Source of the DNA: Oscillospiraceae bacterium
GTDB taxonomy: Bacteria > Bacillota > Clostridia > Oscillospirales > Ruminococcaceae
Assembly (NCBI GenBank): GCA_018110825.1
Contig: JAGBCL010000108.1
Coordinates: 29,135-93,134 of the forward strand
DNA: 64,000 nucleotides
Direction: 5' to 3'
A program made the translations under genes and the position numbers. Position 1 is the stretch's first letter. Each line of letters opens with the position of its first letter. Below, piece after piece: positions 13,161-63,810 of the stretch. The notes under the pieces were generated by a model that saw only the letters and a list, made by a program, of their open reading frames with translations, had not been told where the DNA came from and searched no databases.

Positions 13161-13417
13161 AATAGTATTTCAAAGACGTAGCAGTCAGAGTAGCTTACTA
13201 TGAAGCTTACAGAGAGTATCGGGTCGGTGCGACGATACAGCGGATGGTTTGTGAAGTGCGGCTGTCAGTCCGGACGGGGAACATTTTGAGTATCCGTCTG
13301 CGTGAGCTCACGTTACAGGGCACAGAGGGAGCGTCAAAAATATTGCTCCGAATTGAAGTGGAACCGTGGTAAATGTATGTTGCCGCCTTCATAGTATATT
13401 CTATGGAGGCGGTTTTT
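13161..13417 (+). promoter_or_regulatory. T-box riboswitch, tRNA-Cys specific
   Basis: A leader that reads uncharged tRNA and controls transcription of cysE-cysS. It has an AGAGAG K-turn motif followed by a GGTGCGA apical element, a specifier context GTGAAG then TGC (Cys), the T-box sequence AAGTGGAACCGTGG (about 13357-13369), and a terminator (CCGCCTTCATAG 13383-13394 with CTATGGAGGCGG 13401-13412, then T5). The UGGA of the T-box would pair with the UCCA end of tRNA-Cys, which has U73. Specifier, discriminator match and downstream genes agree. Confidence 0.93.
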
Positions 13418-31198: not shown

Positions 31199-31783
31199 TC
31201 AGAATTTACTGTATTCTATTTTAGTAACAATATCATCATTTCTGTTTACAATAAGCTGAAGAAATCCCGTATCCCCAGACATATCCCCATAGGAAATATA
31301 GTCATGTTCACCATCGGTAAGCACCCACATTTCCTCATCCTCGGAAAGTGCCTTACCTTTTTCACCAAAATATGCTTCTGCTTTTGCTTCTGCGTCAGCA
31401 ATTGTATCACCTACACAGATTCCGAAAATCGAATATTCGGAAGGAACATATGTAAAATCCTCAAAGCTGATTGAGGAAAGCGAAACACCTGCAACCTTGC
31501 TGCCGCTGAAAGTCAATTCAATCAGGTCATACTCCATATCAGAATCGCTGTGAGCAAAGCTGTATGAATAGAAGTCCGTACCAGTCATTGCCATAGCCTG
31601 CTGAAGCATTTCGTTGTCAACCTCATCAGCACCGCCATTGACATCCATATCGTCAAAGACATCTTTCTTTACGCCAATTGCTTCGGTAAGCTCATACTGA
31701 GAGAAGTCATAGCTTTTTCCGCAGGCTGTCATAAGCACGGCGGCAAGCAATGCGGCGGTTAATGTTATAAACTTTTTAAGCAT
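31199..31783 (-). CDS. Predicted lipoprotein, unknown function
   Basis: 194 residues with a lipoprotein signal peptide; the lipobox is LMTAC and the lipidated Cys is residue 21. The mature part is acidic and carries a pattern (GICVGDTIADAEAKAEAYFG) seen in Ruminococcus surface lipoproteins. It would sit on the outer face of the membrane. The ribosome site is AAAGGGGTAATA, unusually G-rich and complementary to the loops of the candidate small RNA at 44870-45060. Single-gene unit with a consensus promoter. Confidence 0.75.
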   Translation of the reverse strand: MLKKFITLTAALLAAVLMTACGKSYDFSQYELTEAIGVKKDVFDDMDVNGGADEVDNEMLQQAMAMTGTDFYSYSFAHSDSDMEYDLIELTFSGSKVAGVSLSSISFEDFTYVPSEYSIFGICVGDTIADAEAKAEAYFGEKGKALSEDEEMWVLTDGEHDYISYGDMSGDTGFLQLIVNRNDDIVTKIEYSKF

Positions 31784-42362: not shown

Positions 42363-44399
42363 CTATTCAATGCCTCTGTAGTAAAGTCCCCGTGTAAAGC
42401 CGCCGTCAGAAAGCTTTCTTCCCTCCCTGTAACAGCTTATCACACGTTTTACCTCTGCAGCTGTTTCATCGGTAAAATCAAGCAGCACAAAATCGGCACA
42501 GATTTCGTCCATTCTGTCGCTCATCATCAGCAAATCGCTGTTGAGAATTTCGGTTGAAATTCCGTCACACTTCACCCTGAACTCACGTCCTGTTCTGTCA
42601 GTAAGCTTACCTGTGCAGTTCTTGCAGCTTCCAACTGCCTGCTTTACGGGACAATTTCTCGTCAGCATAAGCGGCAGATATCCGTAGCCGATTATCCCCA
42701 CAGGAATGTTGCCGCAGATTTTAGGAAGCTGTGAAACCTTCATTTCAAAGCTTGCAGTAACATCTGCAAGTCCCAGCTGTCGTGCCGTTTCCACGGAATA
42801 GGGGCTTACAACGTTCAGTCCGAAACCGCCGTGCAGAGTAAATTCAAGCGCCTTGCCAAGCTGAACGTGTGCAAGGTTAGTGCAAAGGATATGCGTAAAT
42901 CCGTTTTGCTTTACAACTTCAAGCTGTTTTATCAACTTGTTTTCATCATCAACAAATCTCGGAAGTTCTACTATTATATTTTCCGCCGCCTGCACCTTGC
43001 CGCAAAGCTTTAACGGTACAACAATTTCGTCAGCATCCGTCGCACCTGCAAGCTGTTCAGCATCGGAAACCTTCACGCGGATTTTCGCAGGATAACGGTT
43101 TTCTCGTTTGAAGCCAAGGTCAACCTCGCAGATATGCTGTTTTGGCTTTGCCGCTTCAATTCGTTCCGCATCCATTTTTTCAACCGCTTCACGTCGCAAA
43201 GCGTTGATTGCAGACGCCGGCAACATTAACCCATCGTCAATTTCAGTATAAATATTACCAATAGTATAAACTGTATCACCCAATTTATCAAGCTGACGGG
43301 CGATATAATCCTTATCGGCAGGACGATTTTTCGCAGCTTCGGGAACAGTACCCTCCGCCGTAACCGTTATTCCTCCGCAGGTCATTTCAAGCTGTGACGG
43401 CTTACCGCTTTTTATATATGCACAAAAGTCGGCAGTTGCCGCCTTTGTTTCTTTTCTGTATTTTTCACGCAATTCAGGCAGAACAGCTTCCGCCGAAACC
43501 ACGTCCTCTTTTCTTCGGTAACCGAACATTTCCGTGCCAAGCTTTCCTGTAAGATAACCGTCTGTAAAGCCGCTTCGTGAGAAAACAGCTTTCAGTGTGT
43601 CAAGGTCAGGGTTGTTTCCGTCCAATGCTGCACGGCAAGCCGTTACTGCCGCCGCAACATATTCAGCACGTTTCATACGTCCCTCTATTTTCAACGATGC
43701 AATACCGATTTCGGTCAGCTTGTCAATCTGAGGAATTCCGCATAAATCCTTTAATGACAAGTCATAGCGTTCCTTGCCGCCAGTTGCAGAAAACGGAAGT
43801 CTGCAAGCCTGGGCACACATTCCCCTGTTTGCACTTCGTGAACCAATCATCGCACTCATAAAGCATTGTCCCGAAACGGACATGCAAAGTGCACCGTGCA
43901 CGAAAGCCTCAATTTCGATACCCGTATTGGTCATTTCTTTCAGTTGTTCAAGGGACAGTTCCCTCGCCGCAACAACTCTTGAAAATCCCATTTCTTTTGC
44001 AAGCCGTGCACCCTCAGGAGTATGAATGGTCATCTGTGTTGAAGTGTTCAGCTTCATATCGGGAAGCATTTCACGAAGCAATCTTGCCGCACCGATATCC
44101 TGCACGATAAGACCGTCAGCACCCATTTCCGCAGAGCGTTTTGCTGCCGCAAGAAAATCCTTCATTTCCTCCGCAAACACAACCGTATTCATTGCACGGT
44201 ACACCTTTACGCCGTGCAGATGACAATATTCAATCGCCTGTGCAAGCTCATCATCGTTAAAGTTTGTTGCATTTGCACGTGCAGAAAATTTTGCTCCGCC
44301 GACATATACCGCATCAGCACCGCACCTTACCGCTGCATAAATGCTTTCCATGCTTCCCGCAGGAGCGAGAAGCTCAGGTTTGTTTAAAAGTCCCTTCAT
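42363..44399 (-). CDS. U32-family protein, RlhA-like RNA hydroxylation type
   Basis: 678 residues. The N-terminal TIM barrel starts with ELLAPAGSMESIYAAVRCGADAVY; the cysteine-rich signature EAFVHGALCMSVSGQCFMS followed by MCAQACR, plus later CPVKQAVGSCKNC, supplies the four-Cys iron-sulfur site. LKIEGRMKRAEY is the family hallmark. A C-terminal DUF3656-type extension is present. Members include RlhA (23S rRNA C2501) and TrhP (tRNA), both RNA hydroxylation factors; older annotations call them collagenases. Its start overlaps the zapA stop by 4 nt, so they are translationally coupled. Which RNA is modified is not certain. Confidence 0.9.
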   Translation of the reverse strand: MKGLLNKPELLAPAGSMESIYAAVRCGADAVYVGGAKFSARANATNFNDDELAQAIEYCHLHGVKVYRAMNTVVFAEEMKDFLAAAKRSAEMGADGLIVQDIGAARLLREMLPDMKLNTSTQMTIHTPEGARLAKEMGFSRVVAARELSLEQLKEMTNTGIEIEAFVHGALCMSVSGQCFMSAMIGSRSANRGMCAQACRLPFSATGGKERYDLSLKDLCGIPQIDKLTEIGIASLKIEGRMKRAEYVAAAVTACRAALDGNNPDLDTLKAVFSRSGFTDGYLTGKLGTEMFGYRRKEDVVSAEAVLPELREKYRKETKAATADFCAYIKSGKPSQLEMTCGGITVTAEGTVPEAAKNRPADKDYIARQLDKLGDTVYTIGNIYTEIDDGLMLPASAINALRREAVEKMDAERIEAAKPKQHICEVDLGFKRENRYPAKIRVKVSDAEQLAGATDADEIVVPLKLCGKVQAAENIIVELPRFVDDENKLIKQLEVVKQNGFTHILCTNLAHVQLGKALEFTLHGGFGLNVVSPYSVETARQLGLADVTASFEMKVSQLPKICGNIPVGIIGYGYLPLMLTRNCPVKQAVGSCKNCTGKLTDRTGREFRVKCDGISTEILNSDLLMMSDRMDEICADFVLLDFTDETAAEVKRVISCYREGRKLSDGGFTRGLYYRGIE

Positions 44400-44791
44400 T
44401 TCTTCACGCTGTCGAGAGTAAGCTGTTCATCAATATCAGACTTCATTTTCTTTATCTGAAGCTCATTTTCCAGTGCAGAAATTCTTGCAAGGAGAGCCTT
44501 TTCGTTCTTAACTGCCTCATCACGTTCAAGTCTTGCCTGACAAGCATCATCAACGTATTCCTTAATCTGAGTACGGATATTGTCGATACTGTCATTAGCT
44601 TTCTGTGCTTCATCAAATGCCTGAAGAGCAACAAGAATTGCTGCAGACTGGACAGAAATATTATCTGCAGAAGCCGCCATTCTGTAGATTTCTGTATCAA
44701 CCTTTTTTGCAAGACCAATAAAATAGCTTGGTGCATCATCAGTTTTCAGACTGAATTCTTTGCCGCAGATGGTAACCTTAACCTTATTCAT
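44396..44791 (-). CDS. zapA: Cell division protein ZapA
   Basis: 131 residues from the ATG at 44791 (GGAG and GAGG upstream). The N-terminal domain (KVKVTICGKEFSLKTDD) and the long C-terminal coiled coil (KNEKALLARISALENELQIKK) match ZapA, which cross-links FtsZ filaments. The frame extends upstream, but the region between is leader. Head of the operon with the U32 protein and DUF4321, the arrangement seen in many Clostridia. Confidence 0.88.
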   Translation of the reverse strand: MNKVKVTICGKEFSLKTDDAPSYFIGLAKKVDTEIYRMAASADNISVQSAAILVALQAFDEAQKANDSIDNIRTQIKEYVDDACQARLERDEAVKNEKALLARISALENELQIKKMKSDIDEQLTLDSVKK

Positions 44792-44828
44792 ATAACCTCG
44801 CTCCTTAAAAAAATTACTAATCACATTA

Positions 44829-44857
44829 ATTATAACTTATTTTCCGACACATTTCAA
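44829..44857 (-). promoter_or_regulatory. zapA operon promoter
   Basis: Minus-strand TTGAAA (44852-44857), 17 nt, TATAAT (44829-44834). Confidence 0.8.
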
Positions 44858-44869
44858 GTATATTCTTCA

Positions 44870-45060
44870 CAAAAAGAAAGTGGCTCTGCCTTAGGGGTAA
44901 AGGCAGAGCCGAAGATCATGATATAGGATTATTGGGGGTTTCCATAAGCTGTAGGGGTAAACAGCTTATGGCGGTCTTTTATATGGTTTTCACCTGACAG
45001 ACTTGCGGGGTAACAAGTCTGCATATAAAAGCTTTTGGGGGATTAGTACTCTTGTTGAGT
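44870..45060 (-). ncRNA. Candidate small RNA with five exposed C-tracts
   Basis: On the minus strand this gene-free stretch contains, in order: a GTACTC/GAGTAC hairpin (45046-45062), CCCCC (45037-45041), a 10-bp stem CTTTTATATG/CATATAAAAG enclosing an 8-bp hairpin with loop TTACCCCG (44976-45031), an 11-bp hairpin with loop TTACCCCT (44942-44971), CCCCC (44934-44938), and an 11-bp GC-rich hairpin with loop TACCCCT (44882-44910) followed by CTTTCTTTTT, which looks like its terminator. The C-tracts sit in loops or between stems, the layout of antisense RNAs that pair with G-rich ribosome sites. No open frame explains it. Strand choice is inferred from the promoter and terminator. Confidence 0.6.
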
Positions 45061-45063
45061 ACA

Positions 45064-45091
45064 GTTATATAATAACCCCTTTTTGTGTAAA
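45064..45091 (-). promoter_or_regulatory. Candidate promoter for the small RNA
   Basis: Minus-strand TTTACA (45086-45091), 16 nt, TATAAC (45064-45069), placing the RNA start at about 45057. Confidence 0.5.
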
Positions 45092-45213
45092 TCATGTGAA
45101 AAGACGTTGAAATGCATACGAAAAAATCAATTCTTTTTATCACCAAATCTTTCTGCATAATTTCGTCAGTCTGATGTAAAGTTCCAAAAACTAACCGTAT
45201 AATTATACGAGAT

Positions 45214-45321
45214 GTTGAAAAAACGGTTGAAAACGTTGGAAACATACATTTCTGTGGAAATTTTACCCTCGAAAACACGTTGTTTCAACATGCTTTTCAA
45301 CATTTTCAACTTGTTTTCAAC
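45214..45321. repeat. Cluster of GTTGAAA/TTTCAAC repeats
   Basis: Two forward GTTGAAA copies (45214, 45226) and a variant GTTGGAAA, then four TTTCAAC copies at 45283, 45295, 45304 and 45315, spaced 12, 9 and 11 nt. A 14-bp palindrome CGTATAATTATACG precedes them at 45196-45209. No gene is present in 45092-45352. It may be a protein-binding array. Confidence 0.55.
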
Positions 45322-45352
45322 ATTCACAATGTTAAAAACGGAAAGCATTAAC

Positions 45353-45385
45353 AAAAAAGCCATTCCCGAAATGGAAATGGCTTTT
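45353..45385 (-). terminator. Terminator after the M23 peptidase gene
   Basis: Minus-strand stem AAAAGCCATT (45376-45385) with AATGGCTTTT (45355-45364), followed by a T6 tract, 8 nt past the stop codon. Confidence 0.9.
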
Positions 45386-45392
45386 CTTACTA

Positions 45393-47225
45393 TTAATACT
45401 GTGAAACATAATCCAGTGGATCCTCATAAGAACCATATGGAGAACGAATTTCAAAGTGGAGATGGTTACCTGTGGAATCACCTGTACTTCCAACGTAACC
45501 GATGAGCTGTCCCTTTACAACATAATCACCGTAGCTGATTTCTGCAAGTGAACTCATGTGAGCATACATTGCTACCTCACCATTATCATGCTTAATCTTT
45601 ACACAAGTACCGTAGCCGCCGTTCCAGCCGCTTTCAGCCTGAGTAATTGTACCGGACTCTGTTGCATAGATAGGTGTTCCGTACGGAGCAGCAATATCAA
45701 TACCCTTGTGACCTCTGCCGTCGCCCATATATGCGGAAATGTAGCCACCGTCAACCGGCCAGAAGTAAACGCCTGAACCGCCGCTTCCTTCGCTGACTGG
45801 AGTAATTGTTTCTCTTGTACCGACTCTTCTGTATTCTGTAACCGGCTCGGAAACAACTTCCTCGCTGATAACATCTGTTGCAACCGCTGTGTCGCCCTTA
45901 TATGTAACCTTTGCAACAACTTTCTTTACGCCCTCAACACCTTCTACATCGACTTCATAGTCACCCTTGTAGATGTCAGGGTCATCAGTTTTTACAATTT
46001 CATAATCAATTGATTCTGTATATTCAACTTCCTTTGTTGTCATTACCTGAAGATAAGGAACTTCCTCAGACAGCTGGATAACAGCACCAATCGGGAAATA
46101 TTCTGTGATATCCTCAATTTCCTCGCCCTTATAGGAAGCGAAGCATTCATTGAGTTCATCCATTGTCATATCATTATCCATAGCAACATCCCATGGATTG
46201 TCGCCCTTTACAACCTCGTAATAAACCGGTTCTGTAACAAGTGAATCCAGCTTTTCGATGATTTCTGTCTCATCTACAATCTGGTCAGGCATTACATAAT
46301 CTTCATATGCATATTCGATATTCTTGTCAAAAGAAATATCAATAACACCTTCATCTGCATATTCAGCCTTCTTTGTTTCAAGGAAATTTTCAATTGCTGT
46401 ATACTCTGAAACAGCACCTGCAAACTCACCGTCAATTGTTACAATGTAAGCTCTTTCTTCATTTGTGTTTTCAGCCACATCAACAGGTTCTCCCTGAACT
46501 TCAACTTCAACAGGAACTTCAGCTTCAACAATCTGTGTATCAATCTGTTCCTGGATAGCGTCCGCAAGCATCTGCTCATCAATAACCTCATCTTGAGCAC
46601 CGAGCGGCTTCAGAGAAAGGGTTGCAGTAATATATGTTTCACTTTCTGTATCAAAATAGGTAACTCTGTCAGCTACAACCTGCTGAGCTTCATTGAGGAC
46701 TGCTTCCTCTGAAACCACACCGATTTCCTGACCGTTATATTCAATTGAAACGCCGTAATCCGCAGATGTTTTTTCAGCAACAACACCTATAAGCAATGCA
46801 ATACTTGCAACCGGCACTACGTGATTAATAACTGTTTTTGCAAAATTCTTGTTGTTCTTAATGGCTGTACCGATATCGGAGAGCTGAAGAACCAGCGCTT
46901 TTCCTAATCCCTCTTCACTGACTCTGCCTGAAAACTTTTTACATGAAGCTGCAATACTTTCTGTAAAGCCTACAAAGCTTCTTTTGAAATTCATAATCTT
47001 TTCGGCGAAAACCTCTGCAGCCTTCTTACCGAACGGAATGAGTTTTCTGGTAACTGTTTTCACTGCGCAGCCTGCAACCGCAAGCGTTCTCTTAATGGCA
47101 GAGGAGCATATATATGTAACGAGTGTACCGATATTCACCATAGCTGACTCGATACTTAATATATTTTTCTTATCAAGTTCAGCGTTATTCTCCGCTTGCT
47201 TTTCAGCATTTGGATGAATGCTCAT
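45393..47225 (-). CDS. M23-family peptidoglycan endopeptidase with LysM and G5 domains
   Basis: 610 residues from the ATG at 47225 (AAAGGAG 8 nt upstream). A long cytoplasmic helical N-terminus leads to a membrane helix (about 131-150); outside are a region of repeats, a LysM-like segment (YYEVVKGDNPWDVAMDN), a G5 domain (VEYTESIDYEIVKTDD to EYRRVGT) and a C-terminal M23 domain with zinc ligands in GHKGIDIAAPYG and HLHFEI and the MYAHMSSL motif. It should cleave peptide cross-links in the wall. The long cytoplasmic N-terminus is unusual for this class. Confidence 0.93.
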   Translation of the reverse strand: MSIHPNAEKQAENNAELDKKNILSIESAMVNIGTLVTYICSSAIKRTLAVAGCAVKTVTRKLIPFGKKAAEVFAEKIMNFKRSFVGFTESIAASCKKFSGRVSEEGLGKALVLQLSDIGTAIKNNKNFAKTVINHVVPVASIALLIGVVAEKTSADYGVSIEYNGQEIGVVSEEAVLNEAQQVVADRVTYFDTESETYITATLSLKPLGAQDEVIDEQMLADAIQEQIDTQIVEAEVPVEVEVQGEPVDVAENTNEERAYIVTIDGEFAGAVSEYTAIENFLETKKAEYADEGVIDISFDKNIEYAYEDYVMPDQIVDETEIIEKLDSLVTEPVYYEVVKGDNPWDVAMDNDMTMDELNECFASYKGEEIEDITEYFPIGAVIQLSEEVPYLQVMTTKEVEYTESIDYEIVKTDDPDIYKGDYEVDVEGVEGVKKVVAKVTYKGDTAVATDVISEEVVSEPVTEYRRVGTRETITPVSEGSGGSGVYFWPVDGGYISAYMGDGRGHKGIDIAAPYGTPIYATESGTITQAESGWNGGYGTCVKIKHDNGEVAMYAHMSSLAEISYGDYVVKGQLIGYVGSTGDSTGNHLHFEIRSPYGSYEDPLDYVSQY

Positions 47226-47318
47226 TACAACAACTCCTTTCTTTTTTGTTTCACACATATTATATATTCATAAGATCGTTTTCAAAACAAACAGTTACAA
47301 AAGAGTAACATTACTACT

Positions 47319-63396: not shown

Positions 63397-63810
63397 AAAT
63401 TTCCGTTATCATTCGGCTAAAAAATTACAGCCGACCGCCTGAGCAAAATTGCTCGGCACAATATATACGCTACTCTTGATAGAGTGCAAAATGCAAGAAC
63501 GCTCGTTCTGCTACATTTCCTGTTTTACAACATTATTCGATTTTTGTCAACCCCAAAATGTCAAAAAACTGCGTAACCAAGCCGTTTCTAAGTTCCGATA
63601 TAGCGGTGGAGTAATAGGGATTAGATTTGATTTTTCGCATAACTTCTGAGAAAAATATATCCGCTGTATCATTTTTGAGACAGGTAGTGGGTGGAGATAA
63701 CTCCAAAATTTTCACAAAAATTTCACATTTGAAATTGAGGTATGACACTGATTTTTTAAAAATAGGACAAGTGCGCAACGAACTGCGTTGAGTTATTGCG
63801 GGTGAGAGAA
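63397..63810. other. Gene-poor region beside the recombinase relic
   Basis: No convincing gene. A minus-strand frame ends in a stretch reading SNPYYSTAISELRNGLVTQFF that could be a gene relic, but it has no ribosome site. A GAGCAAAATTGCTC palindrome lies near 63438. Probably decayed mobile-element DNA. Confidence 0.4.

Follow-up and report, generated by a model that had tools for sequence, protein, structure and literature searches.

The window analysed here is a stretch of 64,000 nt from the genome of an Oscillospiraceae bacterium (GenBank assembly GCA_018110825.1, contig JAGBCL010000108.1, positions 29,135 to 93,134 of the forward strand). On its minus strand, between the gene of a peptidase with M23 and G5 domains and zapA, a small RNA (sRNA) locus was found that is made up of a promoter of the regulator type, a ~190-nt structured RNA and a terminator. 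Below, G, L and C numbers denote genomes, loci and contigs, respectively. The locus contains the following features, with neighbouring and related genes at the end:

45084..45123, minus strand: regulator box of four repeats with an 11-bp period (TTTCG at 45123, TTTCA at 45112, TTTCACA at 45101, TTACACA at 45090)
45101-45084, minus strand: core of the regulator box, TTTCACATGATTTACACA, as read in the sequence
45064..45069, minus strand: -10 element TATAAC, 16 nt past TTTACA (TATAAT in the related locus L002)
44870..45062, minus strand: small RNA of ~190 nt, delimited by its fold (z -10.6) and covariation, with an inferred 5' end
45046..45062, minus strand: 5' hairpin GTACTC..GAGTAC of the predicted fold, perhaps transcribed only in part
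45037..45041, minus strand: C-tract 1 (CCCCC) in single-stranded linker 1, from sequence and alignment
44976..45031, minus strand: outer helix CUUUUAUAU/AUAUAAAAG of the predicted fold, around stem-loop 2
44997..45022, minus strand: stem-loop 2 (SL2) with the loop UUACCCC; C-tract 2 is at 45010-45007
44942..44971, minus strand: stem-loop 3 (SL3) with the loop UUACCCCU; C-tract 3 is at 44957-44954
44918..44938, minus strand: linker CCCCCAAUAAUCCUAUAUCAU, nearly invariant in the alignment of relatives, holding C-tract 4
44882..44910, minus strand: terminator hairpin (fold and alignment), whose UUACCCC loop is C-tract 5
44871..44880, minus strand: U-rich tail CTTTCTTTTT, as read in the sequence
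45396-47258: peptidase gene, M23 and G5 domains (Pfam)
44829..44857, minus strand: promoter-like site of zapA itself, TTGAAA-N17-TATAAT (11/12 promoter matches)
44399..44791, minus strand: zapA, the downstream neighbour, outside the RNA (Pfam PF05164)
31202..31783, minus strand: lipoprotein gene with a AGGGGTAA ribosome site, a candidate target by complementarity

The predicted fold of the minus strand has an energy of -76.6 kcal/mol, compared with -36.6 +/- 3.8 kcal/mol for 200 dinucleotide shuffles (z -10.6), none of which was as good. SL2 forms 10 pairs in this fold and is nested within the outer helix, SL3 has 11 bp, and the terminator hairpin has 9-11 bp and a loop with UUACCCCU, followed by CTTTCTTTTT; the short 5' hairpin GTACTC/GAGTAC is also formed. 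All five C-tracts are unpaired. When the folds of 45 loci were predicted, 141 of their 164 C-tracts were unpaired, a count that includes L060 and in which an automatic 5' limit shortened some of the RNAs (e.g., L013). An earlier sequence-only reading of this DNA had proposed an undescribed minus-strand RNA with C-rich hairpin loops, five C-tracts and a TTTACA-N16-TATAAC promoter. The hairpins and the tracts were found where that reading had placed them, and the promoter sequence is present, though a generic promoter scan did not list it. The RNA is also undescribed as far as Rfam goes: at the gathering score no family matched it, either in the window or in the 20 loci taken from relatives, and a search of 44600-45400 at E values up to 5 gave nothing credible. 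The outer helix, the two-component-system box, the co-regulation with htrA, the linkage to a kinase operon and the nearly invariant linker were not part of that reading.

In the alignment of the genus sequences, SL3 and the terminator hairpin together comprise 360 cells, 99.2% of which are paired, and 11 of the 20 pairs show two-sided changes. None of 500 shuffles matched the observed pairing, two-sided changes or covariation score, and pairing fell to 34-41% when the partners were shifted by one column. Unlike these measures, the number of further standard pair types was not above the shuffles (242/500 for the genus alignment and 416/500 for the whole-RNA alignment). The latter alignment (A6, 13 of the 19 genus sequences) was 91.7% paired over the whole RNA, with two-sided changes in 16 of 50 pairs; the respective values were 91.9% and 5/10 for SL2 and 100% and 7/11 for SL3. 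The nine pairs of the outer helix are all invariant in the 13 sequences and give no covariation evidence either way, while the 5' hairpin was 39% paired in this trimmed alignment, which cannot score that helix. The loop letters ACCCC are invariant while the stems are rewritten in 30 sequences from about 10 genera (alignment A5 and the second covariance model, R2, from which L060 and L038 were excluded, leaving 30 of 32 sequences). The earlier statement that the stems vary and the loop cores are kept thus holds within the genus and in other genera, and the loss of loop conservation in relatives that it had named as a refutation was not seen. In addition, alignment A3 contained 16 G-U or U-G cells, one C-A and no A-C cell. 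The minus strand is therefore favoured as the transcribed one, as had been supposed.

A DNA search of 41 genomes revealed the RNA in 19 of the 21 genomes of the genus and, partially, in G022 of another genus. The two genus genomes without it, G005 and G007, are 74% and 78% complete, and G007 was matched by a promoter alone. Of 297 family genomes, 37 were matched at E <= 0.01 by a first covariance model built from the 19 genus sequences; they include 35 of the 221 good ones and represent 14 of 126 genera. The match was single in 36 of the 37 genomes; G296 has two. After inspection, 33 genomes from 11 genera were accepted; this was the outcome of the covariance search that the sequence-only reading had suggested. 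The loci of G041, G063, G121 and G295 were borne out by the second covariance model. The matches in G077, G150 and G171 were set aside because this model did not confirm them, and G057 (L060) was set aside on account of the loop CACUCC and an altered linker. Tandem duplicates of the RNA occur in genus g45, namely in L071 (G296; 1501-1609 and 1695-1803) and in L074 (G064; 1501-1605 and 1741-1846). SAM (S-adenosylmethionine) riboswitches were seen close to the RNA locus in genus g36 (L063, 2931-3033, and L064, 1329-1431, both on the minus strand).

Under strict filters, R2 gave five matches in 394 genomes of the order, all within the same family and one of them weak, and in 291 genomes of the class, besides G000, only three weak matches in two genomes. 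The four weak loci (G663, G740 twice and G747) were inspected and judged to be chance. A 20-base piece of the linker matched 23 contigs, once each, among 84,980 species; their titles denote Oscillospiraceae, Ruminococcus or Clostridia metagenome assemblies, and no viral contig was matched by this 20-mer. As far as these searches reach, including those at the order and class levels, the RNA appears to be specific to the family. Both models lean on the linker, and therefore members with a diverged linker would be missed. The RNA of G283 (L297; box score 17.9), located behind the kinase gene, was found by the second model with 40 bits, and RNAs with ACCCC-type loops were recognized by eye only behind the kinase gene of G202 (L299; box score 23.5) and G143 (L292; box-like, 2.7), both of which the model misses.

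The repeats in the RNA promoter, TTTTCACA-N3-TTTACACA with 11-bp spacing, match the published box of the secretion-stress regulator CssR. TTTCACA-N4-TTACACA-type repeats with an 11-bp period lie upstream of the -10 element in all 45 RNA promoters used, that of L060 among them (best sites 14.2-27.8), and a weight matrix was trained on these promoters, so their scores are not independent. A search by consensus with one mismatch proved useless (36 matches vs. 33 in the reversed control; one of four exact matches, on C35, lies inside a long open reading frame (ORF)). The matrix scan of 864 kb of the own genome gave 14 matches scoring at least 13, compared with 2 in the reversed control. They included the RNA and htrA (27.8 each), a cyclophilin-type lipoprotein (19.6; Pfam PF00160), a secreted solute-binding protein (18.1; 14.7 for its G001 counterpart) and a regulator-kinase operon (14.1), while several of the remaining ones look like chance matches. 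A strong box, TTTCACAAAAATTTCACA (score 23.3), was also noticed at 63710-63727 (+), close to the end of the contig; no gene was seen between it and that end.

The promoters of L021-L024, found by the DNA search, belong not to the RNA but to an HtrA-type protease of 445-448 aa with trypsin and PDZ domains. When close htrA orthologs were collected by protein search, the box was found in 13 of 13, one per genome, in four genera (15.2-27.8); the open frames of L179-L182 and L186 already start ahead of the box, and the htrA start was therefore assumed to lie further downstream. Four further htrA loci with the box were brought in via the promoter itself. The regulator operon carries a box of at least 13.0 in eight of ten regions from other genera, six of them above 13.2, the 99.9th percentile of random 260-nt windows. 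In G114 (L305), a box with a score of 21.0 lies between the kinase gene and the gene of a PrsA/SurA-like foldase lipoprotein (above the cut-off in Pfam, below it in NCBIfam). Few convincing box sites other than that of htrA were found in G293. The regulator was classified by Pfam as OmpR/PhoB-type and the kinase as HisKA; the label "CssR" would reflect the box and the regulon and not orthology.

In 16 of the 33 accepted genomes, the RNA immediately follows the regulator-kinase operon, on the same strand and, by coordinates, within about 2.4 kb downstream of the regulator gene; in G173 this distance is 3.2 kb. The kinase gene sits between the regulator gene and the RNA in all ten regions analysed from distant genera (10 of 15 fetched; L088-L092 were left out). 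In the genome of the window, the regulator is encoded on a separate contig, C97; it is 76% identical (other regulators at most 47%) and its operon has the box. With a query taken from the RNA-bearing genus, the regulator was found at E <= 1e-84 in 32 of the 33 accepted genomes and in 130 of the 264 others (Fisher p 2.3e-8); when all 37 model-positive genomes were taken, the numbers were 36/37 and 126/260 (p 1.2e-9), both values being uncorrected for phylogeny.

These characteristics (C-tracts kept in loops, a box common to htrA and the regulator operon, physical linkage to that operon) allow us to assume, with a probability of about 0.64, that the RNA is a trans-acting sRNA of a two-component system responding to secretion or envelope stress, and that its repeated C-tracts occlude G-rich ribosome sites. 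A misfolded exported protein or damage to the envelope would activate the histidine kinase, and the OmpR/PhoB-type regulator would then bind the tandem TTTCACA-type boxes and turn on its own operon, HtrA, the foldases and the RNA. Once transcribed, the RNA would expose between two and six C-tracts, located in its linkers and in the loops of its hairpins and terminator; these could pair with the G-rich (AGGGGTAA-type) ribosome sites of mRNAs for membrane and secreted proteins, and the reduced translation would lighten the load on the export pathway. By analogy and anatomy, pairing at ribosome sites is the most likely mechanism, and the RNA probably lowers the production of membrane and secreted proteins, of which candidate targets only can be named. 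In enterobacteria, the sigma-E-dependent sRNAs MicA and RybB form an RNA arm of the envelope-stress regulator and lower the synthesis of envelope proteins. The logic proposed here would be the same, while the regulator, the seed sequence, the membrane type and the RNA family are different.

The best reading by analogy is that the RNA works like LhrC and sX13 without being related to them. According to the available text of the reports, LhrC of Listeria monocytogenes is induced by envelope stress via a two-component system and uses three redundant UCCC motifs to pair with G-rich ribosome sites; its targets include cell-surface proteins, whose Shine–Dalgarno (SD) regions are paired (PMC4132741, PMC8079631). 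The RNA described here also carries repeated C-tracts in hairpin loops, in linkers and at the terminator, though as UUACCCC/CCCCC and not CUCCC, and its box, common to htrA and the two-component operon, may bring it under a comparable induction. Unlike LhrC, it usually occurs in one copy where LhrC is multicopy, has no Rfam match, belongs to Clostridia and not to Listeria, has candidate targets only, adjoins its kinase operon in many genomes and carries a long, nearly invariant linker. The Xanthomonas sRNA sX13 is described, in the part of the report available, as having stable stem-loops with apical CCCC loops and as repressing mRNAs that carry GGGG motifs close to their start codons, without a need for Hfq (PMC3771888). 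The apical CCCC loops on stable stem-loops are shared, but sX13 is proteobacterial and unrelated in sequence, and that part of the report contains no tie to an envelope-stress two-component regulon (PMC3771888). In Bacillus subtilis, as far as the consulted text goes, CssRS is an autoregulated two-component operon controlling HtrA-type proteases through the CssR box TTTTCACA, and a link to PrsA has been proposed (PMC6749698). The system found here is similar in that htrA and the regulator operon are preceded by TTTTCACA-type boxes, which become weaker in more distant genomes; the difference is that its regulator is linked to CssR by box and regulon and not by orthology.

Among the papers listed for CssRS, sRNA and secretion stress, none appeared to deal with an sRNA in the CssRS regulon; none of those listed for small or structured RNA in Ruminococcus appeared to concern such an RNA, a stricter search giving no paper at all, and those listed for secretion stress, HtrA, kinase and small RNA in Clostridia did not seem relevant. 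As far as these searches go, the RNA family, its membership in the regulon and its linkage are new, while a C-rich-loop sRNA under envelope stress is an already known kind.

The ribosome-site complements named in the sequence-only reading do exist: AAAGGGGTAATATT-ATG at 31783 and AAAGGGGTTTTGGT-ATG at about 3275, the latter on the minus strand. The AGGGGTAA motif, which had been named there before this test, occurs as AGGGGTAA-N1-10-ATG at 18 places of the own genome. Eleven of them precede ORFs of at least 57 aa (the seven preceding shorter ORFs were not counted), and eight of these 11 encode membrane proteins or lipoproteins by hydropathy, compared with a background of 255/760 (binomial p 0.009); the other three are a small helix-turn-helix protein, a doubtful ORF of 104 aa (L325) and a protein that we take to be YlxM-like. 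The gene sets are crude ORF calls on part-genomes (own genome, 864 kb of 3.12 Mb; G293, 781 kb; G001, 394 kb). Among the RNA segments, SL2 alone showed a clearly stronger 1% tail of duplex energies with start regions (-15.7 vs. -13.4 +/- 0.65). The start region of the lipoprotein gene at 31783 is AGGGGTAA in G000 and in both G017 copies and GGGGGATTTG / GGGGGATT in G004, and G001 has AGGGGTATG (AGGGGTA) within the first codons; all of these can pair with a C-tract. In G293, the leader of a membrane-protein gene, CATGATATAAGGGGTAAAA-ATG (L360, 3368, minus strand), was seen to resemble the complements of both the linker and the loop.

A number of results weigh against the assumption of a stress-induced RNA that blocks ribosome sites. 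The reversed AGGGGTAA pattern is nearly as frequent in the own genome (13 places), and in comparison with other AGGGG sites the membrane bias is weak (8/11 vs. 15/36; Fisher p 0.07). It was not reproduced elsewhere: no AGGGGTAA site was found in 362 genes of G001, and only two, one of them of a membrane protein, in 660 genes of G293. Mean duplex energies of the loops and the linker with start regions were no better than those of shuffled segments, the linker showed no excess of 7-10-nt complements, and the lipoprotein of 31783 was present in only 4 of 20 genomes tried (five copies). The stand-alone structured minus-strand RNA of the sequence-only reading stands, and the target prediction suggested there gave a lean to membrane proteins in the own genome but not in G001 and G293; the blocking of ribosome sites and the specific targets stay putative. 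L017-L019 lack C-tracts 1 and 2, with GAAA capping one hairpin in two of them, and therefore not every tract is needed. As for the regulon, the best HtrA matches of eight other genomes comprise four with scores of 14.6-17.5, two with 12.6-12.7, one without a box (L194) and one that could not be placed (L195); none of nine further HtrA-like paralogs has a box of at least 13. Among the regulator operons, L081 has no box and that of L087 is weak (11.6). The regulator scored below the cut-off for every one of the 25 NCBIfam families shown, among which there is no CssR/CssS model. Finally, 130 genomes without an accepted RNA carry the regulator. Either the RNA is an optional arm of the regulon, or it was overlooked there by the strict filter, as G283 was negative in the first model search and yet has the RNA.

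Across genera, the 21-nt linker CCCCCAAUAAUCC(C)UAUAUCAU hardly varies, although this near-invariance is inflated because some loci were found through the linker. Its 17-nt core has an exact match only at the RNA locus, in 19 of the 21 genus genomes. The linker was considered as a long antisense seed, and the 17-nt complement (up to two mismatches) was found 22 times in these genomes, 19 of them being the RNA locus; this reading was rejected as the main reason for the invariance because the three matches outside the locus equal the three in the reversed control. Single linker matches of 12-14 nt (L163 6747 and L146 8987) numbered two, compared with 0.13-0.27 expected from shuffles, and none of at least 12 nt was found in the examined parts of G001 and G293. 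On contig C97 of the own genome, three neighbouring genes of zinc-ribbon membrane proteins (L146 8987, 9740 and 10515) have leaders matching the linker over 14, 8 and 8 nt and are a possible target cluster. The invariance of the linker seems to exceed the needs of a short seed that pairs with SD sequences. A rather speculative extension, doubtful as it stands, is that regulator, kinase and RNA together form an ancient cassette of the family for secretion stress with an undescribed RNA design, in which the C-rich loops silence envelope mRNAs and the linker binds a dedicated conserved partner, either a protein or an RNA.

The same properties of the linker could be explained if the stress-induced RNA acted mainly as a sponge or scaffold that binds a protein through its C-rich loops and linker, rather than through mRNA pairing. 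Most positions of the linker do not vary across genera while its 17-nt complements outside the locus equal the control, and a general excess of mRNA complementarity was not found, both of which fit such a role. To our knowledge, a poly-C-binding regulator of this kind has not been described in Firmicutes. C-rich loops complementary to SD sequences are, in the available text on LhrC and sX13, an established pairing design (PMC4132741, PMC3771888), and we regard protein binding as the main activity as unlikely. Somewhat less likely again is that the RNA and its mechanism are as proposed but the system senses phosphate or the cell wall (PhoB/PhoP- or WalR-like). The best NCBIfam scores, all below the cut-off, were those of RpaB/PhoB/YycF for the regulator and WalK/PnpS for the kinase, and 11-bp direct repeats suit PhoB-type regulators in general. 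Against this, the neighbours of the box are HtrA, a cyclophilin, a PrsA-like foldase and the regulator operon itself, and no phosphate gene was recognized among the 14 box matches in the own genome, some of which are without an annotated gene.

Two other explanations concern the transcript itself. In the window, as in 5 of the 12 relatives inspected, zapA follows the RNA on the same strand, which could suggest that the transcript acts in cis on the downstream gene, as its leader or attenuator. However, the terminator hairpin and the U-rich tail precede the separate promoter of zapA (zapA-type promoter sites are about equally common in shuffles, 2 found vs. 2.4), other relatives have other downstream genes, and the RNA follows the kinase operon in 16 of 33 genomes, all of which makes a leader very improbable. 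A plus-strand transcript with GGGGUAA loops is even harder to accept. The plus strand also has a terminator-like hairpin at 44942-44971. However, the plus-strand T-run at which, according to the sequence-only reading, a refuting transcript might end is kept in only 3 of the 19 genus loci, the 16 G-U cells of A3 (vs. one C-A) would become A.C mismatches, and the regulator box, the -10 element and the U-rich tail, which relatives have retained, are all oriented for the minus strand.

The results provide a family of gut bacteria with an RNA family that Rfam lacks, and they tie this RNA to a two-component regulon of HtrA, foldases and the regulator. The persistence of the loops on changing stems and the role of the linker thereby become testable questions. 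If the proposed sRNA mechanism is true, Gram-positive secretion-stress systems own an RNA arm comparable in logic to the enterobacterial sigma-E sRNAs, and C-rich-loop sRNAs under envelope stress arose more than once.

Two further elements were noticed in the window. A cluster of direct and inverted GTTGAAA/TTTCAAC repeats lies at about 45210-45330, in the region that separates the RNA promoter from the gene of the M23 peptidase, and a T-box leader was found at 13170-13393 (+) (Rfam RF00230, 103 bits).
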